Assembly: GCA_018882935.1 (NCBI GenBank)
Contig: VERA01000011.1
Location: forward strand, 1-49,034
Reading direction: 5' to 3'
DNA from: Burkholderiaceae bacterium
GTDB lineage: Bacteria; Pseudomonadota; Gammaproteobacteria; Burkholderiales; Burkholderiaceae_D
DNA length: 49,034 nt
The notes beneath the pieces were generated by a model. The model did no database searches. It had not been told where the DNA came from and saw only the letters and a program-made list of their open reading frames with translations. This document shows, piece after piece, positions 32,685 to 41,127 of the stretch; positions within the stretch are counted from its first letter, which is position 1; every line of letters begins with the position of its first letter. The translations under genes and the position numbers were made by a program.

Positions 32685-33109
32685 ACTTTTCCCGATCCTG
32701 ATTTTTTCGGCTGCTCGCCGAGTATGCCCTAAAAAGGCTACCGACAATACCCGACTGTGTTCTGCAGATGCGTGGTCGACTGTGCATGAATTGCCTGCTA
32801 GGCATGAATTGACTGCTGTGCATGAATTGTCTCGTGCTCATGCATTACCTTGTTTCGCGTACGCGCATCACGCCATATTTTCGACCTGCAACTTAACAAT
32901 TTTTATTTTTTAAGTAGCCAAAAATCGGATTTATACACAAGCAAAATTAGCTGTTCATAAAAAAACCTTAATAGCTATTCGATCACAGCGCGAACTTCCT
33001 AAACTGAGCTCGCGCTTGAAAACATTGAGCAAAACCAAACAGCATCGCTCAAAGTTCTAGGAAAAATCAAGCAGAGATGTTTGCAGCCCTACCAATCAAG
33101 GAGAACACC
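32685..33109. other. Divergent control region of can and rpfF
   Basis: About 425 bases, noticeably AT-rich between about 32880 and 33000. It holds the 18-base tandem repeats (32784-32837), and two inverted repeats upstream of rpfF: AGCGCGA...TCGCGCT (32987-33016) and TTGAGC...GCTCAA (33025-33052), each with a 16-base spacer. No clean sigma-70 promoter can be chosen; no gene is seen. Confidence 0.55.
32784..32837. repeat. Three 18-base tandem repeats upstream of can
   Basis: GCATGAATTGCCTGCTAG, GCATGAATTGACTGCTGT and GCATGAATTGTCTCGTGC follow one another without gaps at 32784, 32802 and 32820. The first ten bases are identical. A decayed fourth unit may precede them. They could be binding sites for a dimeric regulator of can, or a simple minisatellite. 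Confidence 0.85.
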
Positions 33110-34072
33110 ATGTTGATGACAACTGAAAAAGTCAGCTATGCAAAACGACTCTCTGATTCACCAGCATCGCCTGTCTGGCCTCGCCGAATGATGCAACAAG
33201 TTGATGTGAGCTACGACCCCCGCATGCGCGTACTCTGGACCTACATGAAGCCGATCGGCGTACCCTGCTTCAACCAAAATATGATTGAAGAGCTGCACCA
33301 TTTGTTTTCCGAGCTCCATTCCCATCAAGGGCATACCGTATGTGGTCATGAGTGGGTCGCGGTTGATTACTCTGTGATCGCCTCTCGCCGAGAAAGTGTA
33401 TTCAACCTTGGTGGCGATTTGATGCTGTTTCTTAATCTGATTCGAGAAAAAGACCGGGAGGGTTTGCTTAATTATGCGATGTATTGCATTGACGGCATCT
33501 ATTCGCGGGTACGAGGTTATGACGCATCCACCGTCACGATCTCGCTCGTTCAAGGTGATGCACTCGGTGGCGGATTTGAATTCGCGCTGGCAAGTGATGT
33601 CATCGTGGCGGAGGCAGGCACCCGGCTCGGCTTTCCAGAAATACTGTTTAACTTGTTTCCTGGCATGGGGGCCTACAGCTTTCTGGCTCGACGGATAGGC
33701 CCGCGCGATGCCGAGACCATGCTCCTGAGCGGTAATATCTATACTGCCGAAAAGCTTGCCGAGTTAGGAGTGGTTGATATCGTAGCGCCCGTAGGTGAAG
33801 GTGAGCGTTACGTGGAAAACTGGATACGCAAGCGTCATCACCAGCTTAATGGCTTGCGAACTATCTATGACTGCCGCAAACATGTGTGGCCGATATCTCA
33901 CCAGGAGCTTTCCGATATTGCAGTGATGTGGGTAGATGCTGCCTTAAAAATCCAAGATAAAGACTTACGTATGATGACGCGCCTGCTTAAGGCCCAAACC
34001 GTTCAGCATGCGCATTACCGGTACATGCAATCAGCCCAGCCTATCGAAGAGGCCGAGAGAATCGCCGCATAG
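33110..34072 (+). CDS. rpfF: DSF synthase (RpfF-like crotonase)
   Basis: Makes a diffusible signal factor, a cis-2-unsaturated fatty acid, from acyl-ACP by dehydratase plus thioesterase activity. The 320 residues form an enoyl-CoA hydratase fold. The two glutamates needed in RpfF are present 20 residues apart, Glu157 (GGGFEFALASD) and Glu177 (LGFPEILFNLFPGMGAYS), the same spacing as in Xanthomonas RpfF. I chose the ATG at 33110 because AAGGAG sits eight bases upstream; the frame also opens at 33077. The gene is convergent with a heme-oxygenase-like gene and an RpfC-like kinase, the usual rpf arrangement with an added gene. Chain length and branching of the signal are unknown. Confidence 0.9.
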   Translation: MLMTTEKVSYAKRLSDSPASPVWPRRMMQQVDVSYDPRMRVLWTYMKPIGVPCFNQNMIEELHHLFSELHSHQGHTVCGHEWVAVDYSVIASRRESVFNLGGDLMLFLNLIREKDREGLLNYAMYCIDGIYSRVRGYDASTVTISLVQGDALGGGFEFALASDVIVAEAGTRLGFPEILFNLFPGMGAYSFLARRIGPRDAETMLLSGNIYTAEKLAELGVVDIVAPVGEGERYVENWIRKRHHQLNGLRTIYDCRKHVWPISHQELSDIAVMWVDAALKIQDKDLRMMTRLLKAQTVQHAHYRYMQSAQPIEEAERIAA

Positions 34073-34180
34073 GTTTGCTTTGCTTTATTTGCGATACTCA
34101 GATTGCTTTCCAAACTTTGTCTTACTCGATTTGCTTGCCTAACTGTACGTAGTGCAGGTTGTCCATTAAATAGGGTAGGC

Positions 34181-34224
34181 CAGTCAGCGCCTGGAATTCT
34201 GTCATTGAGTTCCAGCGCTGACTG
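34181..34224. repeat. Long hairpin between rpfF and the oxidase-like gene
   Basis: CAGTCAGCGCCTGGAA and TTCCAGCGCTGACTG pair over 15 positions with one bulged C, around a 13-base loop. It sits between two convergent genes with no U-tract, so it may be a bidirectional barrier or RNA-stability element rather than a classic terminator. Confidence 0.7.
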
Positions 34225-34291
34225 ATCTCGACGCATAGTACTGCTGGCAATAATCGTACGGTGCTGCTTCCACACTAAAAATAACTTTGCT

Positions 34292-34939
34292 TTACGCCTT
34301 TGGAAGTGCACCAATCATTTGAGCGAGTAAGTAAAAATTCATGTTAATGCTCTCAATAATTTTTTCCTGCAACAGTGGCGCTTCGATTGACTGAATCAAG
34401 CCAATTAATTCAGCAAGATGATCATCGTCCAGGGTCGCATGTGAATCCAGGAACGTAAAGCCGCGCTCAATCGGGTGGTCAATAGCCTGGGCTACCGACT
34501 GCGCTACTTTGGCGCCATAGCCCGCAGAAGTGAGCTCGAGTACATAAATCATTCCAAGAACACAATGAGGATCGATTCGGTCGATCGCATAGTAGTTAAA
34601 GGCAAGCATGGCTTGTACCGGTGCACTGGGTCGTTGGTTCGGTACATTCGCTGAGGGATAATCCAGCTGATTCAGATCAGTCAGTACCATAGCCTCATGG
34701 CCCTGCTCCTCCGCAATATGCTCATACAGGTAATGTCGTAGTGATGAATGACGATCTGCGCATCGCCCCGCCGCGGTCGCCATTAACGGACAAAAGTTTG
34801 AAACGATAGGATAAAGTTGCAACATAAACTCGGTATACGAAGCCTTTGAATAACTACCACTGAGCATGGATCGTAACTGCGGTAGCGCTTCAATCTGAAG
34901 CCGGTGCCGTTCGGTTATTTGATTAAGTATGTTTTTCAT
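34292..34939 (-). CDS. Heme-oxygenase-like (probable non-heme diiron) oxidase in the DSF locus
   Basis: A 215-residue, all-helical protein of the iron-containing redox / heme-oxygenase-like fold. Metal ligand candidates are Glu78 and His81 (AEEQGHE), Glu135 (VLELTSAG), and His167, Asp171 and His174 (HATLDDDH). This carboxylate/histidine pattern resembles diiron oxidases of this fold (UndA, CADD, SznF group) rather than true heme oxygenases. The closest function is unknown. It lies between the RpfF-like synthase and the RpfC-like sensor, on the sensor's strand and 97 bases after its stop. Since relatives such as UndA use medium-chain fatty acids, it may modify or destroy the DSF signal; that is a hypothesis. 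GGAGA precedes the start. Confidence 0.75.
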   Translation of the reverse strand: MKNILNQITERHRLQIEALPQLRSMLSGSYSKASYTEFMLQLYPIVSNFCPLMATAAGRCADRHSSLRHYLYEHIAEEQGHEAMVLTDLNQLDYPSANVPNQRPSAPVQAMLAFNYYAIDRIDPHCVLGMIYVLELTSAGYGAKVAQSVAQAIDHPIERGFTFLDSHATLDDDHLAELIGLIQSIEAPLLQEKIIESINMNFYLLAQMIGALPKA

Positions 34940-35036
34940 TGATGAATATCTCCGGTGGGGTTGTGGATATCCATCTTGTCTCGAAAAATTACGCGCATCT
35001 GACAGGACTCGCTCATGTGCGATTGCCCAACCACCA

Positions 35037-37811
35037 TCAAGACACGGTTAGCCGCTGACTGCCTCGGCTCTGCTCGTATAACATCAGTTCGGTCCGAAGT
35101 TGCTGAAAATGCGACTCAAGCTGCCGGTGTATCTCTACGTTTCTTTCCAATAGCTGCTCATCCGATAATTTCTCAAGCTGGGTACAAAACTGCTTTAGCG
35201 CATCAGCGCCGATACTGAGTGCGGCACCACGTAAGGCATGAATGGAGGATGCGACATGTCCAAAGTCAGATCGTCGCAAGCTATTGCCGACATTACCAAT
35301 CAAGCGCTCACCTTCCTCGATAAACTCGGTAATAAGCTCGCTCACAAATGCCGGATCTTGGCTCATCGTCTCTAAATTACCCAGCTTATTCAGATCCAAA
35401 ACCCGCGGCGTGGCAACTGCATTAGCGCGTGAATCGTTACCTATCCGTTCGGAAATAAGCTTATCGGGGGCCAGATTGGATATGTCAGCTGTCATTGGCT
35501 CGGACATCGATGCTGAATGATGAGGTGATTTAGCGGGTTCATTGAACGAAGATTCCTTATCGTGGCTCTTGTCATGATCACGGCGGCTTCGCACCAAGTC
35601 ATCGAGGGTTTTTAAAAACTTTGCAACCTCGATTGGCTTTGAAATAAAAGCATCTGCACCGGCCTCGAAGCTCTCCTCGCGGGCGTCTTGTGTGACGCTC
35701 GCTGAAAAGATGATGATAGGCGTCTTGGCGACAACACCACCCATCATTCTGCAAAAACGTACCACCTCAGTTCCCGGGAGCTTCGGCATATTCATATCGA
35801 TGACCATGGCATCGAAGTGCCGGGAAGTGATGATGTCAAGCGCCTCTTCACCATCATTGGCCAATACACAGTGATGACCAGCGCGTTGTAATATTTTTTG
35901 TAAAACTTTGCGGTTTGTTGGATTATCTTCAACGATCAATATAGATAAACCATCACGATCAGCTTGATACGGCCTGTCTGCTGTTTCGTCAAAAGCAAAC
36001 GAATTACCATTACTGACAGCGGGTACTGCTACTGAGCTGGTATGACGTAATCTGGCCTCGGGTATCAATGCAGCCGATTGCGCATGAAGTAGATGCCGCA
36101 GATGATCCAGGCTGAATAACAAGGGCAATACCGTAAAGCACCCTAATTGTTCAGCAAGACAGCTTGCCTCATCCATCGATAGATCTGCGGTCGGCACCAT
36201 AACCAAGATCAACGAGCCATCAATGTCGTACTGCATAAGCCGCCGAACAGCCTCAGTCATCCAGGCGCGATAAGATTGACCGTCGCTGTGGCTAATCGTA
36301 GATACACGCAAAAAAATCATGGAGATCGGTGCGCCATGCAAGCGCGCTTGCGTCAAAACCGACTCTGCCTCATCCAGATCGCGCACGGTTCGCGGTAGTA
36401 CTTTGCCCAGAAAAGCCAGATCCTTGGCCAGCCGCCAGCAAGCCCCCTCAGGGTCAATAATCATGCTCGGGGCACGGCTGAGCAGGCAGGTGTCGTCGAT
36501 GGCTAACACTCGACCAAACCCAAGCTCAAACCAAAATTCCGTGCCTACCCCGGGACGGCTTCGAAGGCCAATGCGGCCACCCATCAGCTCGACCAGCTGC
36601 TTGCAAATTGTTGTTCCCAACCCCGTACCACCGTACTTCCTTGCGGTGGCACTGTCTGCCTGCGTGAAACTCTCAAAGATCTGGCCTTGTACCGGCTCCG
36701 GAATGCCGATACCGGTATCTTCAATCGCAAAATACAGCTCGGCACTCTCTGCACGCAGCGTATGTACGCGAACCCTCAGCGCGATAGTGCCTTGCTCGGT
36801 AAATTTGACGGCATTGCCCAGCAAATTAATGAGTATTTGCCGCAGGTGATGGGGGTCTCCGCGCAATAGCGGGGGAACATGACAATCAATTTGCCGTATC
36901 AGACGCACTGCTTTCGGATCAATGCGGTAGCTAAATACCGTTAATATATTTTCTATTAACGCATAAAGATCGAACTCGACTTGCTCGACACCCATTTTCC
37001 CGGCTTCTATTTTTGAGAAATCAAGCACGTCTTCAATTTGAGATAGCATCAGCTGCGACGTCGTCGTCATGCAGTCGAGCATGTCACGCTGCTCGCGATC
37101 GATCTTGGTACTTTTCAGTAGATCGACCATACCAATAATTGCGTTCAGCGGTGTACGCAACTCATGGCTGACGGCACAGATGAATTGGCGCTTTGCCAGG
37201 TTGGCGCTGTTGGCCTGGTCCAAGGCGGCGAATAATCGCCCGACCAGCAAATTGAAGTACATCGAGATCAACAACGTGCCGAGCCAAAGACCGATTGAAA
37301 GATTTTTTTCGGCAGCCCAGTAAGGTTCGATCCAAATCACAATGCCGAACCCGATTTGCGTAAACAGCAGCGATATCAGTAAATATTTTTGCCCGAAGCG
37401 AAAGCCATTACCAATAATTATCCAGAGATATAGAAAGTACAGTGGCGCGGCATGCACGCCACCAACCGTGAGCAACAGCGTCAGTGCGCCGGTATCCAAC
37501 AAAATAGCGAATGCGCGGCGAATCGGTACCTCTGTTGGCTTGAGCATAATGCTCACGCAAATCGATACAGAGGCAAATAAGAAAAAGGCGACCACCAACC
37601 AGAGATCAATACTCAGCTTGGGTGTCGCCATTTTTATCGAGTCGCTGATGTACTCGAAGTAGTACATCAGCATCGCGCCGATCAAAATCCTTACGACGGA
37701 TTGTTCGAGCTCGCTGTTACGTCGACCTTTGTGGTAAAGCACCACTGCTTGCCAACAACGACGCAGGGGCTTGCTCAGCACTGGCAGTGCGCTTGCTTCT
37801 TGCATCACCAT
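35037..37811 (-). CDS. rpfC: RpfC-like hybrid sensor kinase (DSF receptor)
   Basis: 924-residue inner-membrane hybrid kinase. About five to six transmembrane helices occupy residues 40-195, with the N-terminal NSELEQSVVRILIGAM segment resembling RpfC. His216 is in the HisKA box (AVSHELRTPLNAIIG). The ATPase domain shows NAVKFTEQG, IEDTGIGIP and GGTGLG near 333-400. A receiver domain at about 621-740 has Asp672 (MVIDMNMP) and Lys725. A C-terminal HPt domain carries His858 (SSIHALRGAAL). An extra region at about 435-590 looks like a degenerate receiver and makes it longer than Xanthomonas RpfC. No RpfG is nearby. The ATG at 37811 is chosen; a second Met lies two codons on. Confidence 0.88.
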   Translation of the reverse strand: MVMQEASALPVLSKPLRRCWQAVVLYHKGRRNSELEQSVVRILIGAMLMYYFEYISDSIKMATPKLSIDLWLVVAFFLFASVSICVSIMLKPTEVPIRRAFAILLDTGALTLLLTVGGVHAAPLYFLYLWIIIGNGFRFGQKYLLISLLFTQIGFGIVIWIEPYWAAEKNLSIGLWLGTLLISMYFNLLVGRLFAALDQANSANLAKRQFICAVSHELRTPLNAIIGMVDLLKSTKIDREQRDMLDCMTTTSQLMLSQIEDVLDFSKIEAGKMGVEQVEFDLYALIENILTVFSYRIDPKAVRLIRQIDCHVPPLLRGDPHHLRQILINLLGNAVKFTEQGTIALRVRVHTLRAESAELYFAIEDTGIGIPEPVQGQIFESFTQADSATARKYGGTGLGTTICKQLVELMGGRIGLRSRPGVGTEFWFELGFGRVLAIDDTCLLSRAPSMIIDPEGACWRLAKDLAFLGKVLPRTVRDLDEAESVLTQARLHGAPISMIFLRVSTISHSDGQSYRAWMTEAVRRLMQYDIDGSLILVMVPTADLSMDEASCLAEQLGCFTVLPLLFSLDHLRHLLHAQSAALIPEARLRHTSSVAVPAVSNGNSFAFDETADRPYQADRDGLSILIVEDNPTNRKVLQKILQRAGHHCVLANDGEEALDIITSRHFDAMVIDMNMPKLPGTEVVRFCRMMGGVVAKTPIIIFSASVTQDAREESFEAGADAFISKPIEVAKFLKTLDDLVRSRRDHDKSHDKESSFNEPAKSPHHSASMSEPMTADISNLAPDKLISERIGNDSRANAVATPRVLDLNKLGNLETMSQDPAFVSELITEFIEEGERLIGNVGNSLRRSDFGHVASSIHALRGAALSIGADALKQFCTQLEKLSDEQLLERNVEIHRQLESHFQQLRTELMLYEQSRGSQRLTVS

Positions 37812-37933
37812 GGTTGAAACCTAGGATGACTAAGGAAGCGGCCAGTCTATCGCTCGAGATCAGGAATCTCGCGTTGTAATTGAAATGTGCACATCTCTAT
37901 GCAGATTGCGCAACATGCGAGCAAGGGCCTCGC

Positions 37934-39064
37934 TTACTCGAAGAACTCCTTGACCTTATCCATCCAGCTCTTGCTCTGCGGGCTGTGCTTGGCACCACCC
38001 TCGGTAGTGAGTTGATCAAACTCACGCAGCAGGTCTTTTTGTCTGTCGGTGAGCTTGACCGGCGTCTCTACCACGACATGACAAAACAGATCGCCAGGAA
38101 ATCCGGAGCGCACGCCCTTGATGCCTTTGCTGCGCAAGCGGAAAGTTTTGCCGCTTTGTGTACCTTCAGGCACGCTGAACGACACCTTACCCGATAGCGT
38201 TGGTACCTCGATCTCGCCTCCGAGCGCGGCTTTGGCAAACGAGATCGGCATCTCACAGTGCAGATCATCACCGTCGCGCTGAAACACCCCATGCTGCTTG
38301 ATATGGATCTCGACATACAAGTCGCCGGGAGGGCCGCCGTTCATACCAGGCTCACCATTACCGGTCGAGCGAATCCGCATACCGTCATCAATACCGGCCG
38401 GGATTTTTACTTCGAGTGTTTTGTTGCGCTTGACGCGGCCTGAACCGGCACACGGGTTACAGGGATCGGGAATTACCTTACCCGAGCCATGACACTTCGG
38501 ACAGGTTTGCTGAATGCTGAAGAAACCTTGCTGCATGCGTACCTGACCGTGGCCACCGCAGGTAGCGCAGGTGGTGGGCGAGGTACCCGGCTTTGCGCCA
38601 GATCCGTGACAGGTCTCGCACTCGTCCCATGACGGTACGCGGATGGTGGTCTCGAAACCATTCGCTGCCTGCTCGAGTGTGATGTCGAGGTTGTAGCGAA
38701 GATCAGCACCGCGGTACACCTGCGGTCCACCGCGCTGACGGCCACCGCCACCAAAAATATCGCCGAAGATATCGCCGAAGGCATCAGAAAAACCACCACC
38801 GAAGCCCGCACCCGCGCCGCCTGCACCACCAACATTCGGGTCGACACCGGCATGACCAAAGCGGTCATAGGCCTCGCGCTTTTGCGGATCAGACAGCATC
38901 TCGTAGGCCTCTTTCGCCTCTTTGAATTTATCTTCCGCTTGCTTGCTATCCGGGTTACGGTCCGGATGGTATTTCATGGCGAGCTTACGATAGGCCTTCT
39001 TGATTTCTTCGTCCGAAGCGTTCTTCGCTACACCGAGCGTTTCGTAAAAATCGCGTTTTGCCAT
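37934..39064 (-). CDS. dnaJ: Chaperone DnaJ
   Basis: Hsp40 co-chaperone that stimulates DnaK ATPase and binds unfolded protein. The 376 residues show the J domain at about 1-70 with HPD in YHPDRNPDS, a Gly-rich linker at about 75-110, and four CxxCxGxG-type zinc motifs ([32 protein letters not shown]) near 145-215. C-terminal substrate-binding domains follow. It is type I DnaJ. It is downstream of dnaK on the same strand but separated by a terminator-like hairpin, so some transcripts may stop before it. Confidence 0.97.
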
Positions 39065-39111
39065 GGTTGAATATCCTGACTACGATCGGACAGGGCAAAG
39101 CCTGTCCAAGC

Positions 39112-39140
39112 AAAAAACCGGGCGGAACAAAACGCCCCGA
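39112..39140 (-). terminator. Terminator-like hairpin between dnaK and dnaJ
   Basis: On the minus strand CGGGGCG and CCGCCCG form a GC-rich stem with a TTTTGTT loop, then GTTTTTTG follows (39112-39140). It lies about 40 bases after the dnaK stop. A second hairpin, GGACAGG...CCTGTCC, is about 20 bases further along. The pair may reduce dnaJ expression relative to dnaK. Confidence 0.6.
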
Positions 39141-39180
39141 CCCGGCATAAGCAACACAGCCTCGCTGCGCGCAGTGGTAA

Positions 39181-41127
39181 TTACTTGTCCTTCACTTCCT
39201 TGAAGTCGGCATCCACAACATCATCCTGCGCCGCTTTCGCACTTGCGCCGGCAGTCGCCGCCTCAGGCGCTGCCGCGCCCGCGCCTGCTGCTGCCTGCTG
39301 CGCCTGCATATCGGCATACATTTTTTCGCCGAGTTTTTGCGCCGCCGTCGACAAGGCCTCGATCTTGGCATCGATCGCTACTTTATCGGCACCCTTCAAG
39401 GTTTCTTCCAGTTCTTTAATCGCTGCCTCAATCTTTTCTTTCTCACCCGAGTCGAGCTTGTCACCATGCTCGGTGAGTGCTTTCTTGGTTGAGTGCACTA
39501 AAGCGTCGCCTTGGTTATGCGACTCGGCGAGTTCCTTCAAGCGATTATCTTCAGCAGCATTAGCTTCGGCATCACGCACCATACGCTGAATCTCATCTTC
39601 CGTCAGGCCTGAATTTGCCTTGATGGTGATTTTGTTTTCTTTGCCAGTTGCTTTATCTTTGGCCGACACATGCAAGATGCCGTTGGCGTCAATATCGAAA
39701 GTTACTTCGATCTGTGGCATGCCACGCTGAGACGGCGGAATGCCTTCCAGGTTGAACTCTCCGAGTGCTTTGTTACCCGAAGCCATCTCACGCTCGCCTT
39801 GATACACCTTAATGGTTACCGCTGGCTGATTATCTTCTGCCGTCGAGAACACCTGACTGAACTTGGTCGGGATGGTGGTGTTCTTCTTGATCATCTTGGT
39901 CATCACGCCGCCCAAGGTCTCGATACCCAGCGACAGTGGCGTGACATCCAGCAACAGCAAATCTTTGCGATCGCCCGACAGCACTGCGCCTTGAATCGCC
40001 GCACCGACCGCAACTGCCTCGTCAGGATTGACATCTTTGCGCGGCTCTTTGCCGAAGAACTCCTTGACCTTCTCCTGCACCTTCGGCATGCGGCTCTGAC
40101 CACCGACTAAAATGACATCGTCGATATCAGCCACTTTGACACCGGCATCGTTGATCGCGATGCGGCAAGGCTCAATGGTTTTCGAGATCAAGTCTTCAAC
40201 CAAAGACTCCAGCTTGGCACGCGTAATCTTCAGCGTAAGGTGCACCGGCGCCCCATTCGCCATGGCGATGTAAGGCTCGTTAATTTCGGTTTGCTGCGAT
40301 GAAGACAGCTCGATCTTGGCACGCTCGGCTGATGCCTTGATACGCTGTAGCGCGATCGGATCTTTCGCTAAATCGAGGCCGTTGATTTTTTTAAACTCTT
40401 CAATGATGTGATCGATCAGGCGCTGATCGAAATCTTCGCCACCAAGGAAGGTGTCTCCATTCGTGGAGAGCACTTCGAACTGCATCTCGCCATCAACATC
40501 GGCGATCTCGATGATCGACACATCGAAAGTACCACCACCGAGGTCATACACCGCGATCTTGCGATCACCTTTACCGGACTTATCAAGACCAAATGCCAAA
40601 GCAGCGGCGGTCGGCTCATTGATGATGCGCTTGACATCCAGACCGGCAATACGACCTGCATCTTTAGTCGCCTGACGCTGCGCATCATTGAAGTACGCCG
40701 GCACCGTGATCACGGCCTCGGTGACTTCCTCGCCGAGATAATCCTCAGCAGTTTTTTTCATCTTGCGCAGAACCTCTGCGGACACTTGCGGCGGCGCCAG
40801 GCGCTTGTCACGCGCGAGCACCCACGCGTCACCGTTATCGGCCTTCACAATTTCATACGGCATCAGGCCAATATCTTTCTGCACTTCCTTTTCTTCAAAC
40901 TTGCGACCGATCAAACGCTTGACCGCAAACAGCGTGTTCGTTGGGTTGGTGACCGCCTGACGCTTTGCCGGGGCGCCAACCAGAATCTCGCCATCGTCCT
41001 GGTAAGCAATGATGGAAGGCGTGGTGCGCGCACCCTCGGAGTTCTCGATCACTTTCGGCTGGTTGCCCTCCATGATCGCAACACAGGAGTTGGTAGTCCC
41101 GAGGTCAATGCCGATGACTTTACTCAT
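39181..41127 (-). CDS. dnaK: Chaperone DnaK (Hsp70)
   Basis: ATP-driven chaperone. The 648 residues begin [21 protein letters not shown] and show the phosphate and adenosine motifs [11 protein letters not shown] near 195-205 and [13 protein letters not shown] near 342-354. The substrate-binding domain spans about 390-510 and the helical lid follows. The C-terminus has an Ala-rich linker and ends [11 protein letters not shown], the EEVD-like acidic tail of proteobacterial DnaK. The order grpE-dnaK-dnaJ is normal. grpE ends 74 bases upstream. Confidence 0.98.

Follow-up and report, generated by a model that had tools for sequence, protein, structure and literature searches.

A predicted heme-oxygenase-like diiron oxidase (HDO) is encoded within a locus of the diffusible signal factor (DSF) type in a Burkholderiaceae bacterium. 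The window analysed is the entire contig VERA01000011.1 (49,034 nucleotides), one of the 158 contigs of a 2.74-Mb assembly (GCA_018882935.1) that is 98.67% complete. Three neighboring genes make up the locus: an RpfF-like DSF synthase of the crotonase family (33077–34072, plus strand, 331 residues), the HDO (34292–34939, minus strand, 215 residues), and an RpfC-like hybrid sensor kinase (35037–37811, minus strand, 924 residues). The sequence-only reading of this DNA had put the HDO gene between such a synthase and such a sensor, and all three genes are indeed found in this order. rpfF and the HDO gene converge, with 219 bp (34073–34291) between their stop codons. A promoter and terminator scan listed no terminator-like site in this spacer, but the scan was uninformative (4 and 5 sites, vs. 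means of 6.7 and 5.5 in shuffled sequence). On the minus strand, 97 bp (34940–35036) lie between the stop codon of the rpfC-like gene and the start of the HDO gene, and these two genes probably form one transcription unit.

The synthase matches the model PRK08788 (349.6 bits, cut-off 177) and the solved RpfF structures PDB 3m6m (E 2.3e-54) and 7zq7 (E 2e-59); against the NCBIfam RpfF equivalog it scores 234.4 bits, below the cut-off of 550. Both of its catalytic-type glutamates, Glu168 and Glu188, are kept in all 83 HDO-linked RpfFs that are long enough to be judged. The catalytic glutamates of RpfF are Glu141 and Glu161 in Xanthomonas; RpfF enzymes make a cis-2-acyl chain on acyl carrier protein (ACP), from which they then free the acid (PMC9864630, in excerpt). 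By analogy, the RpfF of the window would also make cis-2 fatty acids. The kinase combines five hydrophobic segments, by hydropathy count, with HisKA, HATPase_c, REC, and Hpt domains, and its REC domain matches that of RpfC (3m6m_D, E 9.6e-24); five transmembrane segments are also what we take to be the input layout of RpfC.

The HDO matches the Pfam family Haem_oxygenas_2 (E 3e-16; 60.1 bits, cut-off 28.9), which bears out its earlier assignment to the heme-oxygenase fold; no NCBIfam model matches it at E 0.001. Six candidate iron ligands had also been named in advance, and all of them proved correct. Glu78, His81, Glu135, His167, and His174 are kept in each of the 86 RpfF-linked relatives described below (82 different sequences), and Asp171 is kept in 85 of them, with Glu in the remaining one. 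In a profile alignment, the six positions fall on Glu103, His106, Glu161, His196, Asp200, and His203 of the UndA chain, whose numbering there we take to be two above the published one. They fit the motif of three histidines and three carboxylates (3H/3C) described for HDOs in a 2026 review (PMC13108848, in excerpt), and point to a diiron oxidase with a full ligand set, whose metal content is a prediction. The family profile matches UndA (E 9e-6), MboA (E 2e-7), and PDB 3dde (E 1.8e-22); for NePabS and CADD, E is 1e-4 to 3e-4. Twelve positions, among them Leu42, Phe49, Tyr72, and Phe163, distinguish the HDOs that are linked to rpfF from those that are not.

Linkage of the oxidase to rpfF

In a sample of 300 genomes of the order, an HDO homologue was found in 51 (E 1e-5). 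The five best homologues besides the window's own (34–53% identity) all adjoin rpfF. The remaining matches, several of them in fragmented assemblies, have no rpfF nearby (E 1e-30); where those genomes hold an rpfF, it lies on a separate contig or, in genome G005, about 296 kb away. A larger collection with one genome per species (84,980 species) was scanned by HDO sequence only, using six aligned rpfF-adjacent HDOs as the query. This yielded 117 pattern matches and 94 relatives, the best 80 of which are counted below; with the six seeds they make up 86 loci (four pairs with identical HDO), or 87 with the window. Because the seeds are all rpfF-linked, the scan describes one HDO clade and not HDOs in general.

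Co-occurrence with rpfF had been set beforehand as the first of the points on which the sequence-only reading could fail, and it was observed almost throughout: rpfF is present in 79 of the 80 loci found by their HDO, within 500 bp or in the same frame in 78 of them and about 2 kb away in L060, and four loci encode the two as a fused protein. At the sole locus without rpfF (L059), the contig ends about 320 bases past the HDO gene. Judged by this linkage, the association between HDO and rpfF is far beyond chance, in keeping with an HDO that belongs to a DSF system.

In a quick-search HDO tree, the 87 linked HDOs, that of the window included, are split from 28 unlinked ones (Shimodaira-Hasegawa-like approximate likelihood-ratio support, SH-aLRT, 100). 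The unlinked set comprises 24 matches of the order sample with loci (weaker matches were left out) and four plasmid loci, and the tree carries a long-branch warning for L034 and L057. The linked RpfFs do not form one clade in a quick RpfF tree (4 label changes), from which the short fragments L078 and L102 were removed and in which L059 has no RpfF; its unlinked RpfFs are the best matches of one query, and unlinked kin of the Sphaerotilaceae type are left out. The plasmid loci with unlinked HDOs (L033–L036) share a recurring cluster of a gene annotated as "thermostable hemolysin", an AMP-binding enzyme, the HDO, and a short-chain dehydrogenase, and in L034 the AMP-binding enzyme is fused to the HDO.

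Several gene orders occur among the 86 loci: 34 are convergent, as in the window, 46 have the HDO gene upstream of rpfF on the same strand, five have rpfF upstream of the HDO gene, and one has no rpfF in view. In 30 of the 46 pairs in which the HDO gene comes first, its stop codon is overlapped by an in-frame ATG of rpfF. If this ATG is the true rpfF start, as we presume, translational coupling of HDO and rpfF is likely in such pairs.

In four cases, RpfF, a linker, and the HDO are encoded by one open frame (L082:1994-3880, L083:8516-10582, L084:8690-10582, and L090:2269-4296). The fused proteins are 628–688 residues long, with linkers of 112–165 residues and pairwise identities of 48–56%, and in all four both Pfam families score above their cut-offs. 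The linkers are free of stop codons in this frame, and the other two forward frames hold 1 to 20 stops. Two of the records are titled Alphaproteobacteria and two Proteobacteria, and all four fusions group in the HDO tree; at the Inquilinus locus L081, rpfF and the HDO gene are separate, with rpfF first. Among 824 matching plasmid records, none covers 80% of a fused query. No other observation points as strongly as this fusion to a common process for RpfF and HDO.

Sensor, output, and accessory genes

A kinase match is present in 64 of the 80 loci, in 60 of them within 4 kb. Co-occurrence with the sensor, the other half of the expected linkage, was therefore confirmed in part: it holds for most loci, but the link is weaker than that to rpfF, which is present in 79 of 80. 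At two loci of the Sphaerotilaceae type (L094 and L119), the kinase is a shorter histidine kinase–REC protein on the opposite strand.

The absence of RpfG near the window locus had been taken as a hint that the output branch differs from that of Xanthomonas. An RpfG query of the window genome (G000) gave only weak receiver-domain matches, and the HD_5 (HD-GYP) model gave none; the genome retains six matches to GGDEF proteins. The absence itself thus stands, but it is not tied to the HDO arrangement: 21 of the 80 HDO loci have an RpfG-like match beside rpfC, and two have a REC-EAL regulator. The latter, in Noviherbaspirillum (L052:6526-7752 and L053:6488-7714), lies upstream of rpfC, in the place of RpfG. 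Among 13 HDO-carrying genomes, HD_5 matches are missing from G000 and its near relatives G300–G303 (the genomes of loci L047–L050, for which completeness figures are not given), and number 2–8 in each of the other eight. This looks like a lineage-specific loss.

Further genes for fatty-acid chemistry stand at some loci. In L038 and in five of the 80 loci, rpfC and the HDO gene flank a fatty-acid hydroxylase gene (FA_hydroxylase), whose family, PF04116, was verified in L038 and L061. The operon on a Methylibium petroleiphilum plasmid (L032) extends past rpfF to a protein annotated as "ferritin", which best matches FA_desaturase_2 (E 8e-8; 32.0 bits, cut-off 22.7) and has a 100% match in L115. 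The HDO, rpfF, and desaturase-like genes of this plasmid, RPME01 (L032:7968-10520), all have 100% matches in Piscinibacter sp. MQ-18 (L115:9968-12517), and this identity suggests a mobile cassette. In an HDO-less relative, a beta-ketoacyl synthase occupies the slot between rpfC and rpfF (L163:7874-9142).

From sequence features, we take the gene order around the window locus to be panB (plus strand), a carbonic anhydrase-like gene (minus), the rpfF-like, HDO, and rpfC-like genes, and dnaJ and dnaK (both minus), with what is presumably folK about 4 kb from the HDO gene. The rpfC-like and HDO genes stand directly behind dnaK–dnaJ on the same strand (34292-41127), as they also do in L048, and heat-shock read-through into them is conceivable. 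Clustering of the loci by neighborhood, which relied on crude calling of open reading frames in GC-rich DNA and left out L111, reflected mainly apparent local chromosomal landmarks.

Possible roles of the oxidase

It had been proposed that the protein could modify, degrade, tune, or sense the signal. Among these roles, the fusions, the likely coupling, and the extra fatty-acid enzymes favour modification. We hypothesize, with slightly better than even confidence, that the HDO is a third, oxidative component of a DSF-type circuit, which would oxidize the fatty acid released by RpfF and thereby produce the signal. RpfF would dehydrate a 3-hydroxyacyl-ACP and free a cis-2 medium-chain fatty acid, as is established for RpfF elsewhere. 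The HDO would bind that acid, probably with the carboxylate coordinated to one iron, in the manner of lauric acid at Fe1 of UndA (PMC13108848, in excerpt). It would then activate O2 and oxidize the chain near the head group by desaturation, hydroxylation, or a further step; decarboxylation, desaturation, and acetylenation are among the reactions of HDOs (PMC13108848, in excerpt). The oxidized fatty acid, and not the plain cis-2-enoic acid, would be the signal read by the adjacent kinase. The substrate, the reaction, and the role of the product as signal are all proposed by analogy.

In a more specific and rather improbable form of this hypothesis, RpfF and the HDO would be a two-step synthase, sometimes one bifunctional enzyme, of a new class of DSF-derived signals such as a butenolide. 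Here, the HDO would abstract the weak allylic hydrogen at C4 of the cis-2-enoic acid to give the 4-hydroxy acid, which would close spontaneously to the gamma-butenolide. The trans isomer could not do so, and for this reason the cis product of RpfF would be a suitable partner of the HDO in this speculative form.

Several observations weigh against an oxidized signal. The residue of the window HDO equivalent to Trp190 of UndA, placed by its spacing four residues ahead of the H-x3-D-x2-H motif, is Phe163, and it is Phe in all 86 linked HDOs. Trp190 is reported to lie near the diiron cluster (PMC13108848, in excerpt), and with this replacement the exact reaction of UndA is doubtful for the HDO. 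In the window and in the 34 convergent loci among the 86 relatives, HDO and rpfF are not co-transcribed, given their orientation; 16 of the 80 loci, some of them on short contigs, have no kinase match; and the hydroxylase and desaturase-like genes occur in few loci only. A linked HDO is present in only 6 of the 54 rpfF-bearing genomes of the order sample. Since most rpfF genes are without an HDO, DSF synthesis does not require one, and the HDO appears to supplement a cassette that is otherwise known: 21 HDO-less rpfF loci with wider flanks contain no HDO match, and eight of them have an RpfC-like kinase, seven of these with an RpfG-like match. Finally, turnover of the signal would predict much the same genetics as its modification.

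Such turnover, in which the HDO would oxidatively destroy or decarboxylate the DSF and so reset the circuit or set its threshold, is nevertheless unlikely in our view. The chemistry is available, as UndA decarboxylates medium-chain fatty acids (PMC13108848, in excerpt), and in the window the HDO gene shares its strand with the sensor gene and not with rpfF, but a maker and a destroyer in one polypeptide, or likely coupled in translation (30 of 46 pairs), would be a poor fit. A fusion would be easier to understand if the HDO were an oxygen or iron sensor that binds or modulates RpfF, since it would keep such a regulator in place; output would then follow O2 or iron and no new molecule would be made. 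RpfF is controlled by binding of the RpfC REC domain, and the two are held together in the solved entry 3m6m. We still consider a sensor distinctly unlikely, as the ligands are all kept, the characterized HDOs are enzymes (PMC13108848, in excerpt), and the extra fatty-acid enzymes at some loci argue for chemistry. That chemistry might also lie upstream of RpfF, with the HDO oxidizing a fatty acid or acyl chain and so altering the chain that RpfF converts. The beta-ketoacyl synthase of the HDO-less locus indicates that an acyl-chain enzyme can fill this slot; however, in substrate-bound 3H/3C HDO structures, according to excerpts, the substrate ligates Fe1, through its carboxylate in UndA and MboA. 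The free acid made by RpfF fits this ligation better than an ACP-bound precursor, and we regard precursor supply as very doubtful.

Two further explanations would take the HDO out of signaling altogether. It could be a self-sacrificing p-aminobenzoate (pABA) synthase of the CADD/NePabS type, placed near folK either fortuitously or to help supply folate. The family profile does reach NePabS and CADD (E 1e-4 to 3e-4), the presumed folK gene is about 4 kb away, and the pabB model has a single, TrpE-sized match in each of four genomes, that of the window and the HDO-linked G065, G103, and G271. However, G141 and G264 carry a linked HDO together with a second, PabB-sized match, and a NePabS query matches none of six linked HDOs at E 0.001; its match in the window genome (L186) is presumably PqqC behind a PqqB-like frame, going by sequence features only. 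In CADD and NePabS, the sacrificial lysine is Lys152 or Lys159 (PMC11965152, in excerpt). None of the 86 linked HDOs has Lys at the aligned position, and the lysine that the window HDO has one residue earlier is not conserved in the clade. Taken together, the missing lysine, the lack of a NePabS match, and the PabB-sized matches of G141 and G264 speak against an identity as pABA synthase, which we consider highly improbable. That the HDO gene is an unrelated passenger beside rpfF is harder still to maintain: nothing beyond the HDO-less state of most rpfF loci favors this idea, and the near-universal linkage through several gene orders, together with natural fusions, strongly disfavors it.

The accepted view is that RpfF makes DSF signals directly. 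If the HDO does oxidize the RpfF product, many environmental Betaproteobacteria and some Alphaproteobacteria would use a chemically different signal that depends on O2 and iron, and present DSF assays could overlook or misidentify it. The butenolide form, if true, would tie DSF signaling to butenolide-type signals. More generally, the linkage suggests what class of substrate is used by an HDO clade for which no assigned function was found, and the fused RpfF–HDO proteins offer compact targets for a test.

Comparison with known systems

Functional validation exists for only about a dozen HDOs (PMC13108848, in excerpt). An HDO accompanying rpfF was described nowhere in the parts of the open-licence literature that were covered, and the terms "rpf", "quorum", and "diffusible" do not occur in that 2026 review. 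The solved structure closest to the HDO is PDB 3dde (E 1.8e-22), a heme-oxygenase-fold protein titled as of unknown function. MboA, the mangotoxin acetylenase (PDB 9ypi; profile E 2e-7), is also an HDO and removes hydrogens from its substrate but, according to excerpts, that substrate is a peptide and the enzyme relies on a redox partner, MboB. No MboB-like partner was recognised at the locus, where none was searched for by name. UndA (PDB 4wwj and 6p5q), a medium-chain fatty-acid decarboxylase, resembles the HDO in its fold family, in the places of its 3H/3C ligands, and in the plausible use of a medium-chain acid; the similarity is remote (profile E 9e-6), and Trp190 of UndA corresponds to a Phe (Phe163) in 86 of 86 linked HDOs.

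At the level of the circuit, the nearest counterpart is RpfF–RpfC–RpfG. It has the same RpfF-like synthase and RpfC-like kinase, and an RpfG-like match accompanies them in 21 of the 80 relatives. The HDO loci differ in the HDO added between or beside these genes, sometimes fused to RpfF; the window locus differs also in a genome without RpfG or HD_5 matches and in an RpfF that scores under the equivalog cut-off. The three-component principle has a precedent in Mesorhizobium, where an R1–I1–crotonase circuit based on acyl-homoserine lactone (AHL) requires a third linked gene for the unusual acyl chain of its signal (PMC10470506, in excerpt). In that circuit, however, the signal is an AHL and the added enzyme is a crotonase, with no diiron enzyme involved; what appears to be new in the three-component circuit proposed here is the class of enzyme and its place in a DSF system.

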